Shown: positions 1,926 to 29,573 of the stretch, piece after piece
Numbering within the stretch: position 1 is the first letter of the stretch
How the letters are laid out: each line of letters opens with the position of its first letter
From: a virus
Length of the DNA stretch: 29,573 bases
Strand: one strand, 5' to 3'
Virus record (IMG/VR): IMGVR_UViG_3300035698_017723
Location: 1 to 29,573 of that record
Translations under genes and position numbers: made by a program
The notes under the pieces: generated by a model
Told to the model about the DNA's origin: nothing
Databases searched by the model: none
What the model saw: only the letters and a program-made list of their open reading frames with translations

Positions 1926-1999
1926 GGTGGGAAAGGTTGTAATAACCTTGGTAAATTAGTTGTTTTACGCTAATTGTAGTTCAAATCTACACCCACCTC
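1925..1999 (+). tRNA. tRNA-like element with irregular anticodon arm
   Basis: The acceptor AGGTGGG (1925-1931) pairs fully with CCCACCT (1992-1998). The T-arm is canonical: TGTAG / CTACA around TTCAAAT (1980-1986). In the D-arm position AAGGTT (1933-1938) pairs with AACCTT (1944-1949), but the loop lacks the usual GG. The middle arm can form GTAAA (1951-1955)/TTTAC (1964-1968) with an 8-nt loop, or AATTAG/CTAATT with a 10-nt loop. Overall length (about 75 nt) is right for a tRNA, but the anticodon cannot be assigned. It starts in the stop codon of the preceding gene. Confidence 0.55.
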
Positions 2000-2023
2000 C
2001 ATTATAAACCCACAGGAGGACAC

Positions 2024-2107
2024 ATGACAGGACAAGATTGGATACCTTTTATGATTACCATAATGTTAGTCATTTTCTATTGGTTTAGTTTAGACCATAA
2101 GGAGTAG
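2024..2107 (+). CDS. 27-residue single-pass membrane peptide
   Basis: A perfect-looking CAGGAGG SD lies 6 nt before the ATG. The product (MTGQDWIPFMITIM...) is almost wholly one hydrophobic segment (about residues 7-22) with a short polar C-terminus SLDHKE. It could be a membrane-anchored small phage peptide; no evidence shows it is a holin. Confidence 0.5.
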   Translation: MTGQDWIPFMITIMLVIFYWFSLDHKE

Positions 2108-2112
2108 AAATA

Positions 2113-2481
2113 ATGAAATATATAACAAAGTTTGATCGTGGAGACTATGTATTTGCTATAGTACAAAAAGGCGTATACACAAAAGTTATTTGTGCTTTGT
2201 GTGAAGGAAAAGGAAGAGTTCCATTATCAAATTCACTTCAAACTATGGTATGTCCTCGATGTGGTGGACAAAAAACATTTAATGTTGATGGTAGATTAGT
2301 ATGGAAAGTAGATGAAGGTGGCATAGTAGATAGAACACAAATTATAGATAAACCCAATAATCTTCTTATACAAATTACATTTATTGGTAGTACTCGTTGG
2401 AAATGTGAAAAAGATATATTCTTAACCAGAAAACATGCTCAAGTAGAATGCGACAGGAGGAATGGTGAAAATAATTACTAA
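2113..2481 (+). CDS. DnaJ-type zinc-finger protein, paralogue A (122 aa)
   Basis: CALCEGKGRV and CPRCGGQK (about residues 27-58) form two CxxCxGxG-type knuckles, the zinc-binding pattern of the DnaJ cysteine-rich domain. The protein opens MKYITKFDRGD and closes HAQVECDRRNG. Both ends and the knuckles are repeated in the next gene, so the two are tandem duplicates. It overlaps that gene by 20 nt. It lacks a J domain, so it is not a co-chaperone of the usual type; a small zinc-stabilised adaptor or nucleic-acid binder is possible. Confidence 0.65.
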   Translation: MKYITKFDRGDYVFAIVQKGVYTKVICALCEGKGRVPLSNSLQTMVCPRCGGQKTFNVDGRLVWKVDEGGIVDRTQIIDKPNNLLIQITFIGSTRWKCEKDIFLTRKHAQVECDRRNGENNY

Positions 2482-2845
2482 GTTTGATTTGGGTCAAGAA
2501 ATAAATATAATAGAAAAAAGAAGAACAAGAAATACTTGTCCCCTATGTAGTGGAAAAAAAGTGGTAACGATAATAGAATCTTTAACTTCAATTCGTTGTC
2601 CAAAATGTATGGGGCGAGGTTACACCTTAGACTTCGTTAATACAAAATGGAAAGTTATGGAATATCCAAAAATAATTGAGTATATTCGTGTAGAAAAATT
2701 TATTGATCATGCAAATAGTGATAATAGGACAATATACAAAGCCATGGTACATGATAAAAATTATATGATGGAAGAAAAGAATATGTTTTTAACACTAACA
2801 CAGGCTCAACTTGAATGTGATAGGCGAAACGAAAATGGAGAATAA
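2462..2845 (+). CDS. DnaJ-type zinc-finger protein, paralogue B (127 aa)
   Basis: This protein shares with its upstream neighbour the opening KIITKFDLGQ, the paired knuckles CPLCSGKK and CPKCMGRG (about residues 26-52), and the ending QAQLECDRRN. The SD GACAGGAGG lies inside the 3' end of the upstream gene. Divergence in the middle is high, so the duplication is old. Function unknown. Confidence 0.65.
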   Translation: MVKIITKFDLGQEINIIEKRRTRNTCPLCSGKKVVTIIESLTSIRCPKCMGRGYTLDFVNTKWKVMEYPKIIEYIRVEKFIDHANSDNRTIYKAMVHDKNYMMEEKNMFLTLTQAQLECDRRNENGE

Positions 2846-2847
2846 CC

Positions 2848-2979
2848 ATGAAAGGAATAGCAACATTACCAACTGAAAGCAGAATCCCTTATGATATTTG
2901 CGAAGAATGTGAATTTAAAAAAGATTGCACCATAGCATATACAAATGCTGCATTTGAATGTGATAAGGAAAACAAATAA
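2848..2979 (+). CDS. Small Cys-cluster protein (43 aa)
   Basis: The ATG follows ATGGAGAATAACC. The product contains YDICEECEFKKDCTIAY, a C-x2-C-x5-C cluster plus a later Cys, matching the pattern of other mini-proteins in this block (for example CNLCIHQSIC at 15336). A zinc or Fe-S site is plausible. Confidence 0.55.
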   Translation: MKGIATLPTESRIPYDICEECEFKKDCTIAYTNAAFECDKENK

Positions 2980-3004
2980 AATCTAGTAATCAATAGGAGC
3001 AATT

Positions 3005-7317: not shown

Positions 7318-7412
7318 GTCCCGGTCGTCTAACGCGGATATCCGTATTCGCTTGAGTAGGACGCCACCTTCGCCGGAGGAAATGTTGGGTTTGAGACCCG
7401 CTCGGGATACCA
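7318..7412 (+). tRNA. Long tRNA-like element with encoded CCA and an inserted hairpin
   Basis: GTCCCGG (7318-7324) pairs over 7 positions (two wobbles) with TCGGGAT (7402-7408), followed by A and an encoded CCA (7410-7412). The T-arm position has GGG/CCC around TTTGAGA (7390-7396), plus one wobble and one mismatch. CGTC (7326-7329) pairs with GACG (7360-7363) as a D-stem. Its loop is swollen by a hairpin GCGGA/TTCGC with loop TATCCGTA. A third arm CCACC/GGAGG (7364-7379) has an A-A mismatch and a 6-nt loop. At 95 nt and clearly GC-richer than its surroundings, it is tRNA-derived, but the anticodon is unclear. Confidence 0.5.
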
Positions 7413-7432
7413 ATTTAACAAAGGAGATACAA

Positions 7433-11536: not shown

Positions 11537-12006
11537 AAATTGTCGAAGAAGTGATGCGACAAGAGGGAATCTCTTGGAGAGAAGCATTAGACAGAAAACA
11601 AAAGTACTTATGTACTAAAGCCAAGACTTTAAGATATAGGAGGAAGAATATGGCTATAGGCGCAACAACAGCAGAAAATCCAAAAGGATGGACAAAGGGA
11701 ATTTTAGTAGGCTTTAAGGAATCAAAGGCACAAACACATATTATCGCGAGCTTTCGTTTAGATACAGGCGATTTTTGTAGTATGCCTTTCAAGAACCCAC
11801 TAAAACTTCAAGAATTAAATCCATTAATGATGGCATTTGGCCTTCAGGCTTTTGAAGGAGTAGGAGATATCGTACTTCCAGAAAAAGGTGATGAAGACAT
11901 GATGGGTATGGATAATCCAATTATGATAAATGTAATTTCTAAAGGAGACTTCCTGAATGCTAAAGGTTTCAAAGCCACAGAGAATGGCGATAAGCCACCA
12001 TTCTAA
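11533..12006 (+). CDS. Possible ssDNA-binding protein; two potential starts (157 or 118 aa)
   Basis: The ATG at 11533 overlaps the previous stop (ATGA). A second in-frame ATG at 11650 has a much better SD (AGGAGGA), so a short form starting MAIGATTAENPKGW may be the main or an additional product. The body has beta-type segments (GILVGFKESKAQTHIIASF) and an acidic tail region ending GDKPPF, recalling the acidic PF ends of SSB proteins. Its place between a Sak4-like ATPase and the primase-helicase supports that idea, but no OB-fold motif is certain. Confidence 0.5.
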   Translation: MKIVEEVMRQEGISWREALDRKQKYLCTKAKTLRYRRKNMAIGATTAENPKGWTKGILVGFKESKAQTHIIASFRLDTGDFCSMPFKNPLKLQELNPLMMAFGLQAFEGVGDIVLPEKGDEDMMGMDNPIMINVISKGDFLNAKGFKATENGDKPPF

Positions 12007-13841
12007 TGCCAACTTCACCTGATAAGTATTACCTATACACTCCTACTGTTTCATCTCGTAGGACAATCAGGCAGGCGAACAAAATTCTACCCATAGAAAG
12101 AGAAGCATATTCATCACTTTTTTACTATGGTGCAGAAATGAAAGAATATTATATGTCAGAAAATACCGTAAGTGGTTATAGTGATAAGGTATATGGTGAA
12201 TATTTTATTCTTGACATTGATGATGAAGACGTAGACGCACTGACAATTAGGTGTGAAAGATTTTTTGAAGATATAAAGGACTTGAAATATTATTTATGGT
12301 TCAGCGGTAATAAGGGATTTCATGTATATATTCCAAAGGAATATGTAAATTATCCAATTAACCTAGAAGATAAATGGAATATAGCAAGTCACTTATTTGC
12401 TCAAAAAATTAGAGAATTATATCCTGAAATCAAAGATAGTGTTGATTTAAGTGTATATGATAAGGTAAGAATTTTTAGATTACCATTCTCTATCCATCCT
12501 AAATCTGGACGTAAGAAAGCGTTAATTAAATGGAGCAAGCTTGATGCTGAGTATCCAACACGTAGTTTCATTACGCCTATATTTAGAAAGGAAGAAATTC
12601 TACAAGAAATTCTAAATGGAAAGCCATGCCCTGAAGCACATAGGAAAATGGTTACAATAGAAGAAACTGACATACCAAAACATAAGGAAATTAATATTGA
12701 CACAGGAGTCGTAAAATCTTATGTCGAATATCCCTATGGTGAGAAATTGTGTATCTATAAGATGCTCAATACTTATGATTTAACAGGAATGCGACACAAA
12801 GTTGCATTACGACTACAGTCTTATTGGAAAGAAAAGGGATACAATAAGGAATTTGTATGGAACATGTTAAAAGTTTGGAATGAAAGACTTACAAATCCCA
12901 TGAGTCCAGCAGAGCTCGATAATATAACAAAATTCTATGATCGTGGTTATATTTTTACTTGTAATGATGATATAAAGTCACACTTTTGTATTAAAACATG
13001 CCATTTATATAAATCTAAGGATATTTCTGAAGATTATATATATCAAGGTAATGATTACTTAAGTCGCTATATAGAAGATATGAAAGCAAGTAAAGACAAT
13101 TACATATACATGGAAGATATGTTTCCAGATTGGCCATTAGCCCCAATTAAACCGGGGTACGTGATAGTATTAGCTGGTGGGCCGGGCTCTGGAAAGACAA
13201 CATTTATGTTAAATATGATGAATTCATTTAAGAAACTTAAATGGCTATTTCTATCAATAGAAATGACAGGTGTAGATATTACTGATAAATTTCTAAAAAT
13301 TACAGAAACGAATTGGGATGATGATATATCTATTCAAGCATTCAAGAATTCAATGAACCATATTATAACCATAGATAAACCAAATATTCATATAGAAGAA
13401 ATTAAAGATTATATGAATATGATGAAATCAAAAACTGGCATTAAACCAAATGCTATAGTAATTGATTATCTATCTTTAATAGCTTCAAAAGGACATAATC
13501 AAACAGAACGTGCTATTCACATTAGCAGACTCTTAAAACAGATAGCAAAGGAATTAAGAGTAGTTATATTTGTATTGTCACAAGTACCTAAGGATTTAGC
13601 TGGTGATGGGAACATCCCATTAGGGCTAGATGCACCAAAAGATTCTGGGGAAATAGTGAATATGGCAGATATGTTATGGACTTGCTGGAGGCCAAATCGT
13701 AATAGAGGCGGTGATATAAAAGATGATACAATTAAAATAGGAATACCAAAGAACCGTCATGGTGTTGCTGGCTATTCTATGGAATTTGATTTTATCGGAG
13801 AAAAGTATCAAGTACACAGTAGTGTACCAAAAGGAGAATAA
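12006..13841 (+). CDS. AEP-type primase fused to DnaB-like helicase
   Basis: Residues 1-210 carry the archaeo-eukaryotic primase signature: D70/D72 (FILDIDDED), S100-H106 (SGNKGFH), and R158...S162-x-H164-x-K166 (RLPFSIHPKSG). A linker with C249, C319, C328 and C332 could form a PriL/PriCT-like metal or Fe-S site. Residues 370-611 form a RecA-type SF4 helicase: Walker A GGPGSGKT (391-398), LSIEMT (416-421), Walker B IVIDYLSLI (484-492), LSQVPKD and a PKNRHG arginine-finger-like motif (581-586). The protein would unwind DNA 5'-3' at the fork and lay primers. It overlaps its upstream neighbour by one base. Confidence 0.8.
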   Translation: MPTSPDKYYLYTPTVSSRRTIRQANKILPIEREAYSSLFYYGAEMKEYYMSENTVSGYSDKVYGEYFILDIDDEDVDALTIRCERFFEDIKDLKYYLWFSGNKGFHVYIPKEYVNYPINLEDKWNIASHLFAQKIRELYPEIKDSVDLSVYDKVRIFRLPFSIHPKSGRKKALIKWSKLDAEYPTRSFITPIFRKEEILQEILNGKPCPEAHRKMVTIEETDIPKHKEINIDTGVVKSYVEYPYGEKLCIYKMLNTYDLTGMRHKVALRLQSYWKEKGYNKEFVWNMLKVWNERLTNPMSPAELDNITKFYDRGYIFTCNDDIKSHFCIKTCHLYKSKDISEDYIYQGNDYLSRYIEDMKASKDNYIYMEDMFPDWPLAPIKPGYVIVLAGGPGSGKTTFMLNMMNSFKKLKWLFLSIEMTGVDITDKFLKITETNWDDDISIQAFKNSMNHIITIDKPNIHIEEIKDYMNMMKSKTGIKPNAIVIDYLSLIASKGHNQTERAIHISRLLKQIAKELRVVIFVLSQVPKDLAGDGNIPLGLDAPKDSGEIVNMADMLWTCWRPNRNRGGDIKDDTIKIGIPKNRHGVAGYSMEFDFIGEKYQVHSSVPKGE

Positions 13842-17872: not shown

Positions 17873-17945
17873 CGGCCTATAGTGTAATGGTAACACCTTG
17901 GCTCTTAAGGCAAGAATTAGGGTTCGAATCCCTATAGGCCAACCA
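17873..17945 (+). tRNA. tRNA with encoded CCA; anticodon uncertain (Lys-CTT candidate)
   Basis: GGCCTA (17874-17879) pairs with TAGGCC (17935-17940), followed by AA and CCA. Position 1 is C opposite A72. The D-arm GTGT/ACAC with loop AATGGTA is canonical (A14, G18G19, A21). The T-arm TAGGG/CCCTA with TTCGAAT is perfect. The anticodon arm is 18 nt, CTTGG..GCAAG with a G-G mismatch and an 8-nt loop CTCTTAAG. A conventional 7-nt reading gives T33 then CTT (Lys). The variable region is only 3 nt. Confidence 0.75.
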
Positions 17946-18588: not shown

Positions 18589-21500
18589 CTAGTACGGTAC
18601 TTGTAAGTTTGCCAATTTGAGCTCTAGTGCGTTTGTTTGGGGCATTGGTTTATTATATCCTATTGCCATCGCATGATGACTAGGTATTTTATTCTTATCT
18701 AATTGACTTTTGTACCTTGAAATCTTTTTATATGGTAGTCCACTTACTTTTTCGACAATCATACCGGGGTTCTTATATATTCCAACTACGTCACGTCCTA
18801 TTCTTCCAAATGGGAACATTGTCCATACATGATAGTTTGCAAGTCTACTCCAATCATTAGAATATAATGCATTAATTGTTGGACCAATCATCCTAGCTGA
18901 TGGAGGTGTAGCCATCTGTAATGGAGCCATATACCCCGGATAAGCACCAAAGAAAGCACGATCTTTTTCCTTACTATCACCAAACAAGAAGTCAGCAATA
19001 TCTTGGAACCACGCATAAGGTTGCGGGAGTGCTGTTTCAAATAATGAATATGTAAAAGCATTACCTGCTGCTATTGCAAACATATCAATCATGGCCGTTC
19101 TTTTAAACCTTTCAAAATCCACTGACCCCGGTCTATACCCAGCAATCTTAGCATCTCTTAATACATCATTACGAAAACGTACAGAGTTCCATGCCCATAG
19201 TTGGAAACGTGTCATTACTTTACCTAACCCAGTATTAGAAAATAAGGGCCTGAAAGGTGCACTATAAAGAAACTGTGTGGCTTTTACCCCTTTTTTGGCC
19301 ATCTCAATTAGGTATGGATTCGATTTTGGATCATCAACTACGCCGCCAAGGTTCTCGAGAGCTTGCATATAATGAGCAAGGAATGCCTCCCTACGTAGGA
19401 TAGTCTCAGGATGACGCATAAACCAAGATGCTTTTTGAAATACAGTTTTACCAATTTTATATTTTTTAAGAATCTTTGGAATCTCGGCTTTTTTACCGTC
19501 CATAATGGCCGCAGTAAGTTCCTTTAATGCGCCACGTTGCTTAATTAATTTATACGATGGATTAAGTTTTGCTTCTTCCACCATGAATTCTTCCTGAATC
19601 CCCATCTTACGTAACCAACTATTAACATCTTCCCATGTTTTAAAATTACTATCAATAGCTGCTTGTACATGTTTTAAGCTCTTCGCTTTTATTAGATTAG
19701 ATAAGCCAGCGCTTTCAATTGTATGCATAGTGCCACCAAATAAATTATTCATTGATGATTTAGGATGTGCTAGAAGTGTGGCTAGTTGGTATCGAGCTTC
19801 CATGTTAGACCATTGGACAATCTTCTGTGGAGTTATCTCCGTCAATGTACTTAGCTCTTCTGGCATACGTTTATTCTTTTTTAACCCTAGCTTATTGAAT
19901 GCTTTATCTATTATTTCCGCAACGTGGTTATCTCTCCAAGACGAAAAGACTCCCTTCATATGCATCTTTGGATCGTTAGCTATTTCATCAGATATAACAA
20001 TAGGGTTACCAAGTGACGATTGTGTGTAAGCACGTAGCCAATTAGACCAAGCGTTCGCAATTCCCGGATCCCAGCCCTTCATACCATTCTTCTCAAAATT
20101 ATTTATATGTAATTTTGCCATTATTTGTGATATATTATTGTAATAACTAGAGATGATACTTTCACCATAATCACTAATGAAGTCCTCATGATTTAAAGAC
20201 CACCCCGGTGTATGAAATGTTCTTGATAGTTGAGACTTGCTCTTACGTGGATTAGCTATCCACAAACTACGTTCATCACGTGTTTTTTTACTCTCACTAA
20301 TAATATTTAACAATGAGCGTATATGTGTATCGTTCATCAATAAGTCTTCCTGTACCATGTTTTGATAACCACCAACACTACGAGCATAAGACTCAACCAA
20401 TCTCTTTTGTTGAGATGACTTTTGGTCTTTATTTAAATCTGGGTTAGTTTTAACTTTGTAAATTTCGTCACGTATCCATTCTGCTGTTAATAATGGATCG
20501 TTTTTAACATGAGGGTAAAAGAAATCAGGATCAAATTTACCAGTAGTTAGTAATGGCCTCTTCTTAAGTGAGGTTAAGTGAATTTCTAGGGCTTTTTTTT
20601 GTTCCAGATATCCATTACGTAATTTATAATCAGTTTCCTTAGCAGCAGCCTTAGCTATCCTATCTATCTGTAATCCCAGTTCCTGTAGTTCCATTGATCG
20701 AGTCACGACCTCAAGGCCATCCATACCAAGTTTTTCTAATGGTATACTCTTATTATTATGTAAATGGTTAGACGTCCATCCAAAAAATGATTTATTCTTA
20801 TCTTTTGCATGTCTACTAAAATTAATAATTGGTATAGTGGTTCCTTCATGTTCTTTATAGTTCCCATTTGCATTTCTATAATAGAACTTTTTAATGGTTT
20901 TCCCATCACCACTTAACCACGTATGATTTTTTTTAATTTGTTCTATGAATTTAGGTTTAATTTTAGCTATTATTTCCGCACCAGTAAGTATCTCAATTTT
21001 ACCATTACCATGATTAACTTTAAATTTACGTTTATCTTTTATATTTTCCCAATCATGCATCTTCTCTACTTCTTGTCGTCGCATCATATATGTAGCTATA
21101 GTTTCTTTTGTTTTAGATGGACTATATCCTTTAGTAAACATCTTCAGGGCCCTAGGATTAGCCTCTTGTTGTATTCCCATGATTTGCCATAGCTTCGCAA
21201 AATCTGGATTGTCAATAGTATATTTTTCAAATGAATCACTAAAATCTTTTCTAAATATTTCCACTTGTTGGCGAGTATTAATTTTAACTTTTTCAAAGTT
21301 TTCTTGTAAGGTTTCAATCACATTAGTAGGTTTCATTACATTACCAATTACCATGCCATGCTTAGATTGATATGCGCTTTGTGTAGGTTTTAGTTCGATA
21401 CCTTCTTTCATCAACATTTCCCCAACTTTTTTAGGAAACATATAATAGAACCAAGGAGATATTGGCAACCCTTTTGATACATCAAGCTTGTTACCTTTTT

Positions 21501-24500
21501 CTACCCAAGACACCTTTGAATCTAAATCCTTAAACCACATATTGACACCCTTAAAATCCACCATATCCATTTGGTTCATGTCTTTGCCAATTATAGATTT
21601 AAAGAAGTCGTTAATATTGTCTGTCCATGGAGTAACTGGATTTTCATATTTAGTAAGCCACTTATCTAATTCCGTCAACACTGGTTGCCATTTCTTACTA
21701 AGCTTAGTGGGTACATTACCCTCCAATATTCTCCAAGCTCTGTGTTCCATGTATTCTTTGTCTTGGTCAATTAATAATTCCGTTTCTATTACCTTACCCT
21801 CTGGAACATCCTTTAATTTAATCTTTGGAGTTTTAACTGTTTTTATAAAATCATCAACAATCTTAACATCTGTATTGAGGTCAATTTCTTGACGACCTTT
21901 ATTAACACTTGTATACAATTTACCATATTCACCATAGGCTTCTTGTAGGTGTTCGTCTGGAATAGCTGCTGATGTGGGAGCCATACGAGACATCTTGGTT
22001 TTATATGCTTTACCATCTTTAAGTTTACCAGCTGCTTCAATAGCTTCTGGAGACTGGAAAGAACCATATAATATTGAATCGAATAATTCAGAAAAACTTT
22101 TCTTAATCTTCGGGTCAGTAATAGTATCAAACATACTAGCTATTTTAGCATCTAGTTCGTGTGCAGTGTATAGCTTTGCTTCTTTCTCATTATACTTGGA
22201 ATTTAACCAACTACCACTTTTCAGTTTATCTGCATCTTGCATTAATTTGTGTAAGATACTATATTTAACGCCATCTTTTTCTATATAAAGATTAATTTTA
22301 TTTTTATCCATCTGTTTCATTTTATTTTTAATAAGCCTAGCAGATGACATTGTATGTAAATTTTCCGATGTCCAATCCCGAGCCTGCCTTATAACTTCAC
22401 TAATGATGTAATTCCGTTTTTCAGGATTACCAGCATGACGGTATAAGGCTTTCATATCTTCACCATATTTAGATATCCTATCGTATTGCGATATACCTTT
22501 ACCTTTTTTAGTTCTAGTTTTTGCCCATTTATATATTTTTAAAGTCTTAGGGTCTTTCATGTTTGTGGAATTAAGGTATTCTTGATGTACGTCTGGTTCC
22601 CATATACGAGACTTTATAATATCTTTAAATAGTGGCGAGAATGGAATTCTTAATCCATCACTTTTTATTAACTCTTTAAGTTTTAAATAATCCTTATCTG
22701 TTGAAACCTTTATATTAAAATTATTTAATAGTTTTGCAAACTTCTTAAAATCAACCTTATCCAATATATCCACACCCATACGAACATGTTGCATATCTTC
22801 AGCTACTTTCATAAGGAATGTATTCTTAGTTAGGTCAGTATATTTATCCATTGTATTCTTTAACAATGCATGTATGTCGCGACCAGAATACTTTCTACCT
22901 GCTGGGTTACGACCCCATATGAGTTTATTTATAGACCCAATATCTTTATATAACGAGTCACCTTGTAGTATTTTACGAGAATATGGGGCATCAAAAGTAA
23001 ATGATTTACCATCTTTTGTACTACCAGTATATTCAAATAATGTCTTGAATGCGATCTCTTGGAATTGTTCAGCTGTTTTAAGACCAGCTTCGTTCATTGG
23101 GTCGGATGATAATGCGATCTGAGCTCTTGTTGTTTCGAGAAAATGTTGTAAGTTCTTTGCATCAAGTTTTAATTTATAGTTATGCTTAAACCCCTTCTTA
23201 TCCTTAATGTCAAATGAACTTTTCTTAGAGCCACGTAACGTTGAATATGTAGCCAATAGTTTAGCTCTAGTTGTTACGGCTGTACTAAGAACCTCTCTAC
23301 CACGAGCTGCTGCACCAGCCGCTCTAAATCTAGCACCGGGCCCCCATATTGACAATCTACTATTCATATAATCTAAGTAGGCAGGGTCGGACAGTGTATG
23401 TATTTCTCTATATGATCTCTTTAGGGTATCAAATATATCAATTGAATTTTTAGCATCAGTTAGTTTAGCATTTTTAGCAATATATGATTTTTTATTAGTT
23501 TTTACGGAAACTTTTTTAAATATATCTGAAATATTTGGAACTTCTATGTCTACTGGATAAAAATCGTTATCCATACCTCGAATGAATTTTATATTATATG
23601 GTTTTAAAAGATTTTCATATTTTCTAATATCGCTTTCCCATATCCCCCCACCGCCATAGTTAGCCCGTCCATATATTTTCAATAATTCTGATGCTGTATT
23701 TTTTATATTATTATATTTTTCTATATTATTCTTAGAATAAGTAAGTGTAGTTTGTTTTGATATAGGTGTTTGTGGTTTTTCATAATATTCATATGCACTA
23801 TCCCCATATATCTTCATCCAATTGCTTTTTAAACCTTTACCGTGTATCTCTCTGCCACCAAAGAACGTTGTAGCGGTGTCCCCGTCAAGGTCCGCACCAT
23901 CCATAAGTTCCATAGACCTAGGATGTACAAGAATACCATTACCTTCTATACCAGTGAACCCACCAAAATAGAGCACCTGTGCGCCCGATGTTGATGAAAG
24001 TGGTACTCTAACATTCAAAGTTTTAAACAACGCCTTGTAGGGGGTTAATTCTTCGCTAGGAGCATTACCCTCAACCTTACTAACAAACTCTTTCCATACC
24101 TTGCCAAGTTTAATTTTTTTACCATTGAAAGAAACAGTAGAATTTGATGATTCATTATTAAAGAAAACCAATTGGTCAGATTTAATATCACCATACATTT
24201 TATGTAACATAGAACCTTTCTCTATCTTCTGTGATTTATTATCTAATTGATATGTTTCACCATGTTTGCTTTTACGGTTCTGTAATTCGTGTCCATATCT
24301 TACCATGCGCTGTTTATATGTATTACCCGCTTTAGGATTAACACTTCTTGAATATGCGTATTTTTGTAATATAGAATCTATATATGGTTGAGTATACGGA
24401 TGTGTGTACATAGATGAGCCCTGTGTCCATTGAAGTTGTCTTTTTGTAGGATTCCTTAAAATATTTTCTTGTGCTACAAAAGATGTATATTCTTCTGGAG

Positions 24501-27500
24501 ATATATCCCCAGATTGTGCTAGACCTTGCATGTGTATGCTTGTTCTATCTATAAGTTTATTAAGTACCTTGGCTACAAACTTCTCGGCACCATTAGTTCT
24601 TAAAGCAGCGCCTAATTCTACGAGGCCAACATCATCTATATTTTTAATGATATTATCTAACTTTTTACCTTCTACTGGATTAGCAATAAGCTCATAAAGG
24701 TCGCTATTAAGTTTTGCATTACCCTGTACACCTTTACGAGATAGGCTATCATAGATATCTTCTACGATTTTACCATATTCAGTTACTCTTTCTTTTGAAA
24801 ATCCATGTGGGAAGTAGGGCGATACGGTCGTGAATGCTTGTTTAAAGAATCCTGTTTTTGTGCCATCTTTTGATATATCCATATTCTCACCGAGTATGTG
24901 TCTGAAGCTACTAAATTTAACTGCTTCTGGGGCTATGTCTCGTTTTTGTAATATCTTCTCTACTCCACCATTTCTGTCTATAAGATTATATCTACCTTCA
25001 CCTTCTCCACCAACAAATTCTAAATCATAAACTGGCCTTTTACCTAATTGTTTTGTAGATGATACGTATTTAAATCCATCTATATCCATACTGGCCATCC
25101 AATCTGAAAAATCCTTATGAGTTGTGGATGTCATATTTTTTCCTAGTTCGGTTCCAAGTGTGGCATTTCTACCAATTGTATTAGATTTCTCTAGTCCGTG
25201 TTGGGTTTTACCAGATATTCTATTAATAAGATTCACAATCTCTGGCCTTACTGGAAAACTACCATCTGTTGCATGTAAATATTCAGATGCCCTTGAGCCA
25301 GAATGAAGTTTGCTTTGGTCACTATATTTATCAGCATCATTAATATATATAACATTCATGAATGCATCACCATCAGCATCTATCTTTTTATAATCTTTTG
25401 GTATAAGTGATAGGTCACCTTCAAATCCAGCAGACATCAGTATGGATTGTCTTTTATTAAATTTAATAGCACTATCTACCCAGTGACCAGTTTCCATTTC
25501 ATTAATATTTTTATATCCCTGTGTGTTTGCGTCATACAACATATTGGATAACATTTGTTTACGGTATGTATTCCATGTTTCAGTTTTTACTTTTTGGCTT
25601 TGCTTATAAGGCCCCTCTCCTACTTGATCTTCTACAAACATATTAAAATCAAACTTAAACCCTTCCTTTGTTCTATAGTCTTGTTTTTTAGCATAGCGCA
25701 TCATTTTACTAAAACGGTTACTAATCTGTGATTGTGACATGTCTTCAATATCTGGATGAATTGGTATATAATATAAACTATGAGCATCACCACGTCCGCT
25801 ATATGGATATAATCCTTTCTTGCGCATGTTTTCATTAATGAATCTAATCTGTTTTGGATTAGCATTATATATTTTAACTTCTTCTTCACCATGTTTCTTC
25901 GTTACAAATACATGATCTACAACATTTAATATATCTTCTGGGGTATTTGTTTTAATTCCCCTTTTAACTCTTGCTGCTACTATTTCATCGTATAGTTTTT
26001 CTATCTCATATACAGGGCGCTTAGAGTTTCTCTCAACTCCTCCGGGGGTAGTGGCATTACCTTTCTCAAGTCCTATTATTTCTTGTATGCCTCTGTTCTC
26101 ATTAAATCTTGGAGAATAATATTTGGTATGTACTCCTTTCTCTTCAAGGATTCCCTTTTGTGTCCAATATCTACCATTCTCACTCTCTACTTCGAACGGT
26201 TTCTTAATATATCCATCTTTAACAAGAAATTCATTCATGATACTAGCGTAGGGTCTTGTCTCTGATTTACTTTTTTTATTATTTACAGTTGATTCAAATT
26301 GTTCTTGTAGCTTTAGCGCATCATTAAGCATATTAGATTTAAGTTGTTTAGCTGTAAGATTTTTATCTGCATACCATTTTGTGGTATTCCTTTCTATATA
26401 ATCTTTATTACTCTGTCTTAATTTATATAGGTCTTTTATGTCTGGAAAGTGATAATCATTATGTAGTGGATAAGCTTCAGGATTTTCTAATGTAGCCTTA
26501 GTTTTAATACCTTCAACAGTACGAGTATCCCCGCCTTCAAGTGTGTCTTGTTGTGCTCGATGTAGGTCTTTTGTTTCAGTATATAAAGCTTTAGCATCCA
26601 ATAATGGTATATTATATTTCTTCGCTATCATGGATACTAAGGCATTTGTTTCTGCCTGTGAAGCGTAATTATTTTCATATATTTTAATTGCTGATTCTTG
26701 GGCTTTTTTAGATAGATTCTTAAAGTTTTTATGTTGTTTTGGGTCTCTTAATCCAAGCTTAATTGAATCCTGTACTAATTGTGCACCTTTCTTATAATGA
26801 GATGGTTTACTAGTTGATCCAAAATATGCACCAAGAAGATATTCATATACTTGTTCTTCTGTGGTTGCACCTTTCATAGTTGCTGGAAGTCCAGTATATA
26901 GAGATGACGCTACCATCCTTACGGCCTTGTCAGCTTGTGGTCCCCCAACTTCTACGTTGCCTATGGCTCCAAACACCGCACCAGTTGTAGCACCGTGCAT
27001 GAATGAAGATAGCATTTGTTTAACTCCACCTTGCCATGAACTAATTGCGGAAGCTGTACCTAAATGAAAAGCACTCTCAGCTAGAGAAGATGGTACTTCT
27101 CCACTTAAAAAATTAGTTGCTGACCTTACGGCCTTGGCTCCACCTACGGAACCTTTAGCAACTATATGACCAGCTGCTTTCTTAGCACCCTTAGTTAATT
27201 TATTTGATAAATACATAGGTACTGATTGTCCAGCCATCTTTCTTGCATGAACAGCTGCACTAGCTAATCTAGTACTACCTAATAATTTAGCACTTAATCC
27301 TAAAACTCTATGTGGGGTCCACCCAACATAACCACCCAATTGACCAACGCTACGAGCAATACTTTCCCCAGTGCTTTTAGGTTGTTCACCTATATTCATC
27401 GTGGTGAATCCAGATAAATATCCTTCACCAGCAGCCCTAACTGCTTTTAATATATTAAAGGAATTATCAAATTCACTTTCAGCAAATGGTAGATTGTATA

Positions 27501-27636
27501 ATCCAACGTGTTGCTTTAGTGTATTTAATTGTTCAGGAGTAAATGCTCGGGGGGATTGTTTATAATAATTTACGTATTGTTTTGTTTCGTCTTTTGAGTA
27601 TAAGGCTTGTTCTAAATTGATACCGACACTATTCAT
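18589..27636 (-). CDS. Giant virion RNA polymerase-like protein (3015 aa)
   Basis: Residues 1205-1260 match the catalytic double-psi barrel of RNA polymerase beta': R1210-x-P1212, G1218-x-Q1220, I1230-E-G-x-x-I1235, H1238-P1239 and A1248-D-L-D-G-D1253, where the three Asp would hold the catalytic Mg. A possible beta-like barrel lies upstream (DADGD 753-757; K810, H813-G814, K817), and a bridge-helix-like segment at 1443-1465. Residues 1-330 are Gly/Ala-rich with hydrophobic helices (FGAIG, LLGAYFG). The C-terminal part (about 2650-2990) has a hydrophobic region with FQLWAWNSVRFRND and LFETALPQPY. Position at the end of the late-type block suggests a virion protein ejected with the DNA to transcribe early genes. 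Known crAss-like gp66 polymerases are much shorter. The function of residues 1500-2600 is unknown. Confidence 0.7.
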   Translation of the reverse strand: MNSVGINLEQALYSKDETKQYVNYYKQSPRAFTPEQLNTLKQHVGLYNLPFAESEFDNSFNILKAVRAAGEGYLSGFTTMNIGEQPKSTGESIARSVGQLGGYVGWTPHRVLGLSAKLLGSTRLASAAVHARKMAGQSVPMYLSNKLTKGAKKAAGHIVAKGSVGGAKAVRSATNFLSGEVPSSLAESAFHLGTASAISSWQGGVKQMLSSFMHGATTGAVFGAIGNVEVGGPQADKAVRMVASSLYTGLPATMKGATTEEQVYEYLLGAYFGSTSKPSHYKKGAQLVQDSIKLGLRDPKQHKNFKNLSKKAQESAIKIYENNYASQAETNALVSMIAKKYNIPLLDAKALYTETKDLHRAQQDTLEGGDTRTVEGIKTKATLENPEAYPLHNDYHFPDIKDLYKLRQSNKDYIERNTTKWYADKNLTAKQLKSNMLNDALKLQEQFESTVNNKKSKSETRPYASIMNEFLVKDGYIKKPFEVESENGRYWTQKGILEEKGVHTKYYSPRFNENRGIQEIIGLEKGNATTPGGVERNSKRPVYEIEKLYDEIVAARVKRGIKTNTPEDILNVVDHVFVTKKHGEEEVKIYNANPKQIRFINENMRKKGLYPYSGRGDAHSLYYIPIHPDIEDMSQSQISNRFSKMMRYAKKQDYRTKEGFKFDFNMFVEDQVGEGPYKQSQKVKTETWNTYRKQMLSNMLYDANTQGYKNINEMETGHWVDSAIKFNKRQSILMSAGFEGDLSLIPKDYKKIDADGDAFMNVIYINDADKYSDQSKLHSGSRASEYLHATDGSFPVRPEIVNLINRISGKTQHGLEKSNTIGRNATLGTELGKNMTSTTHKDFSDWMASMDIDGFKYVSSTKQLGKRPVYDLEFVGGEGEGRYNLIDRNGGVEKILQKRDIAPEAVKFSSFRHILGENMDISKDGTKTGFFKQAFTTVSPYFPHGFSKERVTEYGKIVEDIYDSLSRKGVQGNAKLNSDLYELIANPVEGKKLDNIIKNIDDVGLVELGAALRTNGAEKFVAKVLNKLIDRTSIHMQGLAQSGDISPEEYTSFVAQENILRNPTKRQLQWTQGSSMYTHPYTQPYIDSILQKYAYSRSVNPKAGNTYKQRMVRYGHELQNRKSKHGETYQLDNKSQKIEKGSMLHKMYGDIKSDQLVFFNNESSNSTVSFNGKKIKLGKVWKEFVSKVEGNAPSEELTPYKALFKTLNVRVPLSSTSGAQVLYFGGFTGIEGNGILVHPRSMELMDGADLDGDTATTFFGGREIHGKGLKSNWMKIYGDSAYEYYEKPQTPISKQTTLTYSKNNIEKYNNIKNTASELLKIYGRANYGGGGIWESDIRKYENLLKPYNIKFIRGMDNDFYPVDIEVPNISDIFKKVSVKTNKKSYIAKNAKLTDAKNSIDIFDTLKRSYREIHTLSDPAYLDYMNSRLSIWGPGARFRAAGAAARGREVLSTAVTTRAKLLATYSTLRGSKKSSFDIKDKKGFKHNYKLKLDAKNLQHFLETTRAQIALSSDPMNEAGLKTAEQFQEIAFKTLFEYTGSTKDGKSFTFDAPYSRKILQGDSLYKDIGSINKLIWGRNPAGRKYSGRDIHALLKNTMDKYTDLTKNTFLMKVAEDMQHVRMGVDILDKVDFKKFAKLLNNFNIKVSTDKDYLKLKELIKSDGLRIPFSPLFKDIIKSRIWEPDVHQEYLNSTNMKDPKTLKIYKWAKTRTKKGKGISQYDRISKYGEDMKALYRHAGNPEKRNYIISEVIRQARDWTSENLHTMSSARLIKNKMKQMDKNKINLYIEKDGVKYSILHKLMQDADKLKSGSWLNSKYNEKEAKLYTAHELDAKIASMFDTITDPKIKKSFSELFDSILYGSFQSPEAIEAAGKLKDGKAYKTKMSRMAPTSAAIPDEHLQEAYGEYGKLYTSVNKGRQEIDLNTDVKIVDDFIKTVKTPKIKLKDVPEGKVIETELLIDQDKEYMEHRAWRILEGNVPTKLSKKWQPVLTELDKWLTKYENPVTPWTDNINDFFKSIIGKDMNQMDMVDFKGVNMWFKDLDSKVSWVEKGNKLDVSKGLPISPWFYYMFPKKVGEMLMKEGIELKPTQSAYQSKHGMVIGNVMKPTNVIETLQENFEKVKINTRQQVEIFRKDFSDSFEKYTIDNPDFAKLWQIMGIQQEANPRALKMFTKGYSPSKTKETIATYMMRRQEVEKMHDWENIKDKRKFKVNHGNGKIEILTGAEIIAKIKPKFIEQIKKNHTWLSGDGKTIKKFYYRNANGNYKEHEGTTIPIINFSRHAKDKNKSFFGWTSNHLHNNKSIPLEKLGMDGLEVVTRSMELQELGLQIDRIAKAAAKETDYKLRNGYLEQKKALEIHLTSLKKRPLLTTGKFDPDFFYPHVKNDPLLTAEWIRDEIYKVKTNPDLNKDQKSSQQKRLVESYARSVGGYQNMVQEDLLMNDTHIRSLLNIISESKKTRDERSLWIANPRKSKSQLSRTFHTPGWSLNHEDFISDYGESIISSYYNNISQIMAKLHINNFEKNGMKGWDPGIANAWSNWLRAYTQSSLGNPIVISDEIANDPKMHMKGVFSSWRDNHVAEIIDKAFNKLGLKKNKRMPEELSTLTEITPQKIVQWSNMEARYQLATLLAHPKSSMNNLFGGTMHTIESAGLSNLIKAKSLKHVQAAIDSNFKTWEDVNSWLRKMGIQEEFMVEEAKLNPSYKLIKQRGALKELTAAIMDGKKAEIPKILKKYKIGKTVFQKASWFMRHPETILRREAFLAHYMQALENLGGVVDDPKSNPYLIEMAKKGVKATQFLYSAPFRPLFSNTGLGKVMTRFQLWAWNSVRFRNDVLRDAKIAGYRPGSVDFERFKRTAMIDMFAIAAGNAFTYSLFETALPQPYAWFQDIADFLFGDSKEKDRAFFGAYPGYMAPLQMATPPSARMIGPTINALYSNDWSRLANYHVWTMFPFGRIGRDVVGIYKNPGMIVEKVSGLPYKKISRYKSQLDKNKIPSHHAMAIGYNKPMPQTNALELKLANLQVPY

Positions 27637-27699: not shown

Positions 27700-28707
27700 C
27701 TATTGCGTCGGCATCTGAGGCATCTGTGGAAGTGAGCTCATTTGCGTCTGGTCAAGGAATTCTTGATACGGATCATAATTATTCCCTTCTCTACCATATC
27801 CCGCTAGTATGGATGCTAACATGATTGGAGTTATTACCGCTCCGCCCGCTGTTAATCCACCTTGAACTAGTGGGTTCGACAAGGCACCTTGCAATCCTGT
27901 TTTAAGCGATTGACCGGCTGCTCCACCTGTTAAACTACCAAGTGAATTCTTCAATGTCGAATCAGCTAAGATTCTTTCTAATACACCACCTTTAGTGGCG
28001 GTTTGTTTTGCTACATTACCCCAAGCGCCTAAACGCCCACCAGTAACACCAGCATTTGCTCCAAGTGCACCTAATACTCTTTTTGCTCTAGCTGCTTGTC
28101 CAGCAGTAGTTAAATTTTTACCTGCCCATAAAGCTGCTCTACTGAGCTTCCCGCTAGTCCCAATTGATTTCATTGCTCCGGGTACCTTTAATAGTTTATA
28201 TGCTCTTCCAGCTTTTCCTGCTGCTGCTGCTGTTTTACCAAGTTTTGCTGCCCTTGCCGCGGTTATTGCTGCTTTACCACCAGTAGCAAAAGCACCACCG
28301 GGCACAAACATAGAAGCAACCATGCCACCTACGCGACCACCCTTTGCATAACCATTATTTCTACGGTTTTCATACCAAGAGTTTGGAATCATACCAAGTA
28401 ATGCCCCGTCTATAGCACCAATACCAATACCTTGCAAGATGTCGCCAGCAGAAGCTTTAAGGTCTCTTTTTTTACCTTTATCTATATTTAATCCATATTG
28501 TTGTGCTAATGCAATCGTTTCGGATACTTCATTTGAATCCATCTTATGTGGATTCTTATTATATTTTCTAGTTAGCTCGAGGGCTCTTCTTCTGGCTGCC
28601 CTCAATTTACGCGTCATTATATCAGCTTGTACCATTTGGGCATTAAGCTGTGGAGACCCCTGTCGGCTACCCATTAAATTATAACGCGGTGTTTCAGTAT
28701 ATGCCAT
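27700..28707 (-). CDS. Gly/Ala-rich putative internal virion protein (335 aa)
   Basis: The middle third is rich in Gly, Ala and Lys (GGKAAITAARAAKLGKTAAA) with several hydrophobic helices: ILQGIGIGAIDGALLGMI near residue 95 and AVITPIMLASILAGYG near 300. The N-terminus is basic and helical (RKLRAARRRALELTRK). The C-terminus is Gln/Met/Pro-rich. This composition resembles ejection or internal core proteins that insert in the host envelope, and the N-terminus of the giant protein looks similar. An AGGGGG SD precedes the ATG. Function is inferred from composition and position only. Confidence 0.55.
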   Translation of the reverse strand: MAYTETPRYNLMGSRQGSPQLNAQMVQADIMTRKLRAARRRALELTRKYNKNPHKMDSNEVSETIALAQQYGLNIDKGKKRDLKASAGDILQGIGIGAIDGALLGMIPNSWYENRRNNGYAKGGRVGGMVASMFVPGGAFATGGKAAITAARAAKLGKTAAAAGKAGRAYKLLKVPGAMKSIGTSGKLSRAALWAGKNLTTAGQAARAKRVLGALGANAGVTGGRLGAWGNVAKQTATKGGVLERILADSTLKNSLGSLTGGAAGQSLKTGLQGALSNPLVQGGLTAGGAVITPIMLASILAGYGREGNNYDPYQEFLDQTQMSSLPQMPQMPTQ

Positions 28708-28715
28708 TATGCCCC

Positions 28716-29573
28716 CTATTTTAACCTATTGTAATAATCTTGCATTACACCAACACGACTCCCAAGATTACCTTGTACTTTTCCCCAGAAAGAAGGTTTA
28801 TTTTCTTCTGGTTTGTCTACTTCTGGTGTATATAAAAGCTCACCACTTGGATCCCATGGATTAGCACCTTGACCCCAGTTTATGGAGCCAGTTTTTTGAC
28901 TAGCTAAACCTTCATACTTCTCAGACATCTCAGCCGCACTTAATTCTGACCCACTATTAATAAAATCCTGTAACATATCTGAAGAAAATTCCTGTAGCGC
29001 GCCTTGTCTCATTTGTGGTATTTGACCCATTATAGTAGTAAGCGATTTACCACCAAGTTCCTGTAATTGTTCTTCATTTAAGTCTGGATATTTATTTTTA
29101 AGGAACGTTGGAAATGATTTATCACCAGAGAGGAAATCAGCATCAGTCATCCCAAGAAAACTACTAACATTATCAGATAATGTTAAATTATCATTTTCAT
29201 CAAAAGTAAAAGCATCCCCTTCTGCATCATAAAGACTTGATATATATTCACCAATCCCGCCGCCAATATAATCATTAAGTTGATTACTAGATTGAGTCTT
29301 TATTCTGTCACCCTGACTCTGTGTAAATTGAGCCTGTTGGTTCCCAAATACTTCTTGTTCATTTTCAAACGTTGTTTTATCCCTTTCTCGTTGTATTTTG
29401 CCCCTACCATATTGAAGGACATCCATTTCTTTTTCAAACTTTTGTCTGTCATCTTGCATTCGCCGTAGATTTCCTCTTTGTAAAGAATTCTGACCACCTT
29501 GAAATGCTTGACTATCAGCTTGCATTTGCTGTTGATTTCTTCTATCAAAACCCTGAGAGATTAATCTACCTAA
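28716..29573 (-). CDS. Gln-rich putative virion protein, 5' end outside window
   Basis: The frame is open to the window edge: 16 further codons (LGRLISQGFDRRNQQQ) precede the first Met at 29525, so the true start is outside. The N-terminal 100 residues are Gln/Asn/Arg-rich and probably coiled coil (QKFEKEMDVLQYGRGKIQRE). The rest is acidic with short helices (EQLQELGGKSLTTIMGQI). It is separated by 8 nt from the Gly/Ala-rich gene. A structural or ejection-related role is inferred from the block. No enzymatic motif. Confidence 0.55.
   Translation of the reverse strand, partial: LGRLISQGFDRRNQQQMQADSQAFQGGQNSLQRGNLRRMQDDRQKFEKEMDVLQYGRGKIQRERDKTTFENEQEVFGNQQAQFTQSQGDRIKTQSSNQLNDYIGGGIGEYISSLYDAEGDAFTFDENDNLTLSDNVSSFLGMTDADFLSGDKSFPTFLKNKYPDLNEEQLQELGGKSLTTIMGQIPQMRQGALQEFSSDMLQDFINSGSELSAAEMSEKYEGLASQKTGSINWGQGANPWDPSGELLYTPEVDKPEENKPSFWGKVQGNLGSRVGVMQDYYNRLK

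Follow-up and report, generated by a model that had tools for sequence, protein, structure and literature searches.

A predicted single-chain, two-barrel RNA polymerase in a 3,015-residue phage protein, probably carried in the virion

The complete IMG/VR record IMGVR_UViG_3300035698_017723 (29,573 bases; hereafter the window) holds a minus-strand gene for a protein of 3,015 amino acids (aa), and raises the question of whether this protein is an RNA polymerase and whether a phage would carry it into the cell. The late genes are truncated by the right end of the record, and the window was therefore treated as a fragment. An earlier note on this DNA had read a beta'-type catalytic motif in the protein and proposed a virion-packaged, single-chain polymerase. 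By conservation across homologues and by structure prediction, the protein carries the active site of cell-type RNA polymerases in one chain. We consider it quite probable that it is a phage single-chain, DNA-dependent, two-barrel RNA polymerase that is packaged, ejected and transcribes the first genes.

Conservation and predicted fold of the catalytic region

The placement of the motif from R1210 (codon 24007-24009) to D1253 (codon 23878-23880) on the minus strand was exact to the base. This stretch reads RVPLSSTSGAQVLYFGGFTGIEGNGILVHPRSMELMDGADLDGD and contains every element that had been reported in it, namely RxP, GxQ (as GAQ), EGxxI (as EGNGI), HP and ADxDGD, with the first aspartate 39 residues after R1210. 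The same spacing of 39 is found in gp66 of phage phi14:2 and in 53/53 motif instances scanned (a count that includes some overlapping loci from a single contig); in cellular-type beta' sequences from viral contigs (L005, L021) it is 35, counted directly. When the 3,015-aa protein was shuffled, R.P followed after 30-45 residues by DxDxD arose in 25 of 2,000 shuffles, which makes that pair by itself weak evidence, and HP together with DxDGD arose in 0 of 2,000.

As the alignments stand, conservation is the decisive argument that the motif did not arise by chance. We collected 44 divergent, full-length homologues (2,887-3,591 aa, 20-30% identical), giving an alignment of 45 with the window protein. 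R1210, P1212, S1217, G1226, A1248, D1249, D1251 and D1253 are invariant in 45/45 proteins, including the three aspartates on which the earlier note had staked its reading, and K817, K833, K862, K932 and R1436 are likewise invariant across the full-length alignment. The family motif is mostly GGADLDGD, with a few cases of DGADLDGD and rare GGADKDGD and GGADLDAD. Loci scored as lacking it are fragments ending upstream of the motif, except L166, which carries GGADKDGD. A second DxDGD in the window protein (D753ADGD) was rejected as another active site, as it is not conserved among homologues.

An AlphaFold2 model of residues 580-1700, built from an alignment with 41 homologues, reached a pLDDT of 78 and a pTM of 0.79. 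Its top match in the PDB is phi14:2 gp66 (6VR4; E 3.2e-9), followed by QDE-1 (E 8.8e-5); cellular beta' chains rank after these two and are individually not significant. A second structural comparison gave Z 14.5 for QDE-1, 10.8 over 727 residues for phi14:2 gp66 and 9.2 for P23-45 gp96, with P23-45-like phage polymerases spanning 9.2-10.5 and QDE-1 and plant RDR2 12-14.5. The predicted model thus agrees with 6VR4 and QDE-1 on a two-barrel fold, as a whole-fold match rather than a strand-by-strand tracing of the barrels, and no contrary fold emerged for the motif region. In a library of predicted viral structures there are close matches without names (TM 0.63, E 2e-42); such proteins have therefore been deposited, though unrecognised as far as could be seen.

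Profile comparison points the same way. Against a profile of 11 crAss polymerases, hhalign matched 342 columns spanning both barrels (E 4.2e-5), and the alignment with the gp66 family pairs invariant K817, K862 and K932 with lysines invariant in that family, as well as the DxDxD motif. The match to YonO-like enzymes (E 7e-4) covers 26 columns, the catalytic loop alone, and a search with a sequence profile (42 sequences) found no PDB chain. Because the aspartates and lysines are invariant, the fold matches gp66 and QDE-1, and the crAss profile matches over both barrels, we read the protein as a single-chain two-barrel RNA polymerase, and the earlier proposal of a beta'-type catalytic barrel in a single chain is borne out.

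Single-sequence searches of PHROGs, Pfam, PDB sequences, GenBank phages and two IMG/VR scans found no relative of the protein, no Pfam domain was found in it, and searching phages and plasmids at the DNA level gave no relative either. Relatives emerged solely from a codon-degenerate pattern and from the alignments that followed it. The pattern, DGAD[LF]DGD, brought up two true homologues, with blastp E-values of 1e-32 and 1e-15, and their alignment led to a third, on a contig assigned to a Candidatus Peregrinibacteria genome (L148). With the conserved C-terminus as query, one scan found 166 loci, and 80 of these were retained. The queries tried found no matching isolate in 50,697 phage records, the sole hits being to an inserted domain.

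Several observations came with these searches. The L148 contig is 20.8 kb long and encodes a homologue of 3,299 aa; its Peregrinibacteria assignment reflects either a host or a binning error. The inserted domain, of about 107 residues, occupies residues 876-982 of the L126 homologue (the same gene as L144:7118-16990) and matches phrog_9995 (E 8e-29), a domain also present in phiKZ-like and N4-like phages, where it is mostly annotated as hypothetical. The pattern GAD[LF]DGDT mostly gave YonO-like enzymes, plus some of cellular type. YonO-like single-chain polymerases were numerous: one IMG/VR pattern scan returned more than 70 complete ones (L006-L122), about 900 aa long and with LSGADFDGDTV, and the YonO-like family is therefore widespread too.

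Gene position and the case for delivery with the DNA

In the window, rightward replication genes (primase-helicase, Sak4-like annealing protein, Holliday junction resolvase and exonuclease) reach up to 18.5 kb. The 3,015-codon gene lies on the opposite strand, convergent to them, with genes for proteins of 335 aa and at least 285 aa upstream. This arrangement recurs: in nearly all relatives with known flanks the polymerase gene occupies the final or penultimate place of its operon, with convergent genes opposite, and genes of roughly 200-440 aa, in several cases two small ones, usually lie upstream of it. In a 53.4-kb relative (G004), the polymerase gene shares strand and block with the genes for TerL, portal and major head protein, and by this comparison the assignment to a late block holds. 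The best GenBank matches listed for the G004 portal are P22-like, with no crAss among them; for this reason, a tape-measure identity for the 3,015-aa protein was set aside.

Dozens of relatives carry the same fusion where their virion genes end, which suggests that the polymerase is injected at infection. Operon position and the parallels with gp66 and N4 make packaging and injection likely. From the computed homology and fold, and from the conservation of the active site, we infer catalysis, packaging, ejection, promoter use and early-gene transcription along the following lines. The first barrel would provide the conserved lysines, and the second would hold the catalytic metal ions through D1249, D1251 and D1253. 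The polymerase would be produced late and packaged together with the small proteins whose genes lie immediately upstream, would leave with the DNA via a short tail, and would then transcribe the first genes independently of the host polymerase.

Some results weigh against this account. The clade is known here from sequences and predicted structures alone, and the hhalign probability against the crAss polymerases was no higher than 70% despite the good E-value. A repeat search found no convincing phage promoter in the early block of the window. The model of residues 1960-3000 (pLDDT 70, mostly helical) has no significant Foldseek match in the PDB, and there is no strong transmembrane segment in the 3,015-aa protein, the best 19-residue Kyte-Doolittle window reaching 1.25. 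The earlier impression of membrane-active-looking surroundings is weak on these two counts. Several of the weak Foldseek rows for the 1960-3000 model are membrane proteins; these rows were disregarded.

There are other possible explanations for the protein. With some probability, if a small one, the protein is an active two-barrel polymerase that stays in the cell after its late synthesis and transcribes phage genes there like a non-virion polymerase. P23-45 gp64 is an active two-barrel phage polymerase outside the virion (PMC10770324), and the kind of data by which the clade is known also leaves room for such an enzyme. However, the gene stands among virion genes and apart from the replication genes, gp66, its closest relative of solved structure, belongs to the virion, and about 1,900 non-catalytic residues, superfluous for a free enzyme, are retained in all full-length members, best of all at the C-terminus. 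A good deal less probable is an ejection protein that retains the polymerase fold to bind DNA and has lost RNA synthesis. A large share of the chain is indeed non-polymerase, and the same limit on the data applies, but the three aspartates, R1210, R1436 and the four lysines are invariant at 20-30% identity, as in a working active site. That the motif is a chance resemblance within an unrelated structural protein is, on the alignments and the model, very unlikely: shuffling can produce its looser form and no known family was matched by the single sequence, but neither accounts for family-wide invariance, a fold match at E 3e-9 and a profile match over both barrels.

For the packaged and ejected polymerase, we tentatively entertain a more specific form, possible though short of an even prospect, in which a large uncultured clade outside Crassvirales, probably short-tailed, follows the N4 strategy with a cell-type two-barrel enzyme, and the terminal regions serve in an ejection channel or as a membrane tether. 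If so, the polymerase must unfold, traverse the short tail and refold, and its transcription would help to pull the genome in while the terminal regions form the channel or tether at the membrane.

Comparison with known polymerases

Much like the window protein, phi14:2 gp66 (PDB 6VR4; GenBank Phi14:2_gp077), the best fold match, has both barrels in one chain, the same motif spacing and aligned lysines, and its gene closes the virion block, with convergent early genes opposite. It is annotated as structural on mass-spectrometric evidence, and the title of 6VR4 calls it a virion protein. It differs in its length (2,180 aa), its 100-kb Crassvirales genome and its motif (DFDID versus DLDGD here), and its similarity to the window protein is visible by profile and fold only.

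The window protein had been said to exceed the known crAss-like gp66 enzymes in size by far. This does not stand, as GenBank contains crAss polymerase fusions of up to about 4,946 aa (cr118_1, from coordinates) and P23-45 gp96 has 5,002 residues (PMC10770324). The giant gp66-type fusions of crAss phages cr118_1, cr60_1 and cr56_1 (L244, L245, L247) are labelled 'DNA helicase' or 'nuclear pore complex protein-like', and their matched region carries the catalytic motif TGSDFDIDK.

Fusions of the P23-45 gp96 type are tape-measure proteins with metallopeptidase and transmembrane domains. Like the window protein, gp96 itself (PDB 8h2m, 8h2n) joins a two-barrel polymerase with DxDGD to virion domains in one giant chain (PMC10770324). 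It is the tape measure of a long-tailed phage with the polymerase N-terminal, whereas the polymerase of the window protein is mid-chain and a relative has a P22-like portal. The N4 virion RNA polymerase has a fold of the T7 type. This enzyme, gp50 of the Schitoviridae phage N4, is a giant virion polymerase of about 3,500 aa with a central catalytic part, encoded beside two ejection-protein genes (PMC12633501). It shares with the window protein the giant chain and the central position of the catalytic part, and the window gene order mirrors the cassette gp52-51-50, with an ejection role presumed for the upstream genes. Unlike the T7-type gp50, the predicted catalytic part of the window protein matches two-barrel enzymes. 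QDE-1 and plant RDR2, polymerases of RNA silencing, have the same single-chain two-barrel core, but are eukaryotic cellular enzymes without virion parts. YonO-like phage polymerases share the loop (GADFDGD), but are about 900 aa long and lack the long extensions.

The kind of enzyme is therefore already known, as single-chain two-barrel phage polymerases have been described, including packaged ones and ones fused to virion proteins. What is apparently undescribed is this distinct, well-populated clade of dozens of related phages, with many contigs of about 50-53 kb and a P22-like portal in the one checked, and within it a polymerase placed mid-chain in a protein of roughly 3,000 residues whose C-terminus is best conserved. 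No published description of the clade was found in the literature searched, with most subscription papers and all bioRxiv preprints outside that search. Early transcription that an injected two-barrel polymerase carries out independently of the host has, to our knowledge, been demonstrated in few phages; the 45 distinct full-length members and the 166 loci of one scan suggest that the strategy is common in uncultured phages. The family combines a cell-type enzyme with a gene layout like that of N4. Its deep alignment can serve studies of how single-chain polymerases evolved, and it is a source of new enzymes to test. It is also a natural setting in which to ask how an enzyme of this size could exit a phage tail and function in the cell.

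Features of the window

Table 1. Features of the 29,573-base window and the basis of each assignment
Feature	Position	Strand	Basis
Gene for 3,015-aa single-chain two-barrel RNA polymerase (predicted), long terminal extensions	18589..27636	-	Open reading frame (ORF); 44 full-length homologues; fold and profile matches
First (beta-like) barrel, about residues 755-935; invariant K817, K833, K862, K932	24832..25374	-	Lysines, gp66 alignment, model strands; approximate, putative limits
Second (beta'-like) barrel, about residues 1105-1262	23851..24324	-	Model strands, fold match; approximate, putative limits
Catalytic motif R1210-D1253 (RxP ... HP ... GADLDGD)	23878..24009	-	Putative metal-binding aspartates D1249, D1251, D1253
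Candidate bridge helix, long predicted helix 1433-1469; R1436 invariant, R1447 nearly so	23230..23340	-	Model, conservation; putative assignment
N-terminal region, residues 1-300, Gly/Ala-rich, conserved	26737..27636	-	Block conservation, homologues
C-terminal region, residues 2601-2980, helical, best conserved part of protein	18697..19836	-	Conservation, model
Gene for 335-aa Gly/Ala-rich protein, candidate ejection protein	27700..28707	-	ORF; many relatives have genes of roughly this size before the polymerase; putative function
Gene for protein of at least 285 aa, truncated at record end, candidate ejection protein	28716..29573	-	ORF; putative function
Primase-helicase gene, convergent replication block	12006..13841	+	phrog_19, phrog_16345

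Of the regions in Table 1, the N-terminal one may possibly have an ejection function, and the primase-helicase gene is a possible target of the injected polymerase. Directly after the catalytic barrel, residues 1301-1400 (23437-23736, minus strand) are absent from most homologues (gap fraction about 0.8); this stretch is an insertion of the window protein and a few others, and is partly of low confidence in the model.

The window also holds a tRNA-like gene at 17873-17945 on the plus strand, which scores 47.8 bits against Rfam tRNA. Its anticodon loop is unusual: ARAGORN assigns it the four-base anticodon ctta, and TTA (ochre suppressor) is a possible alternative reading. Directly upstream there is apparently a second, degenerate tRNA-like stretch, and a T-arm-like copy lies at 7387-7432.
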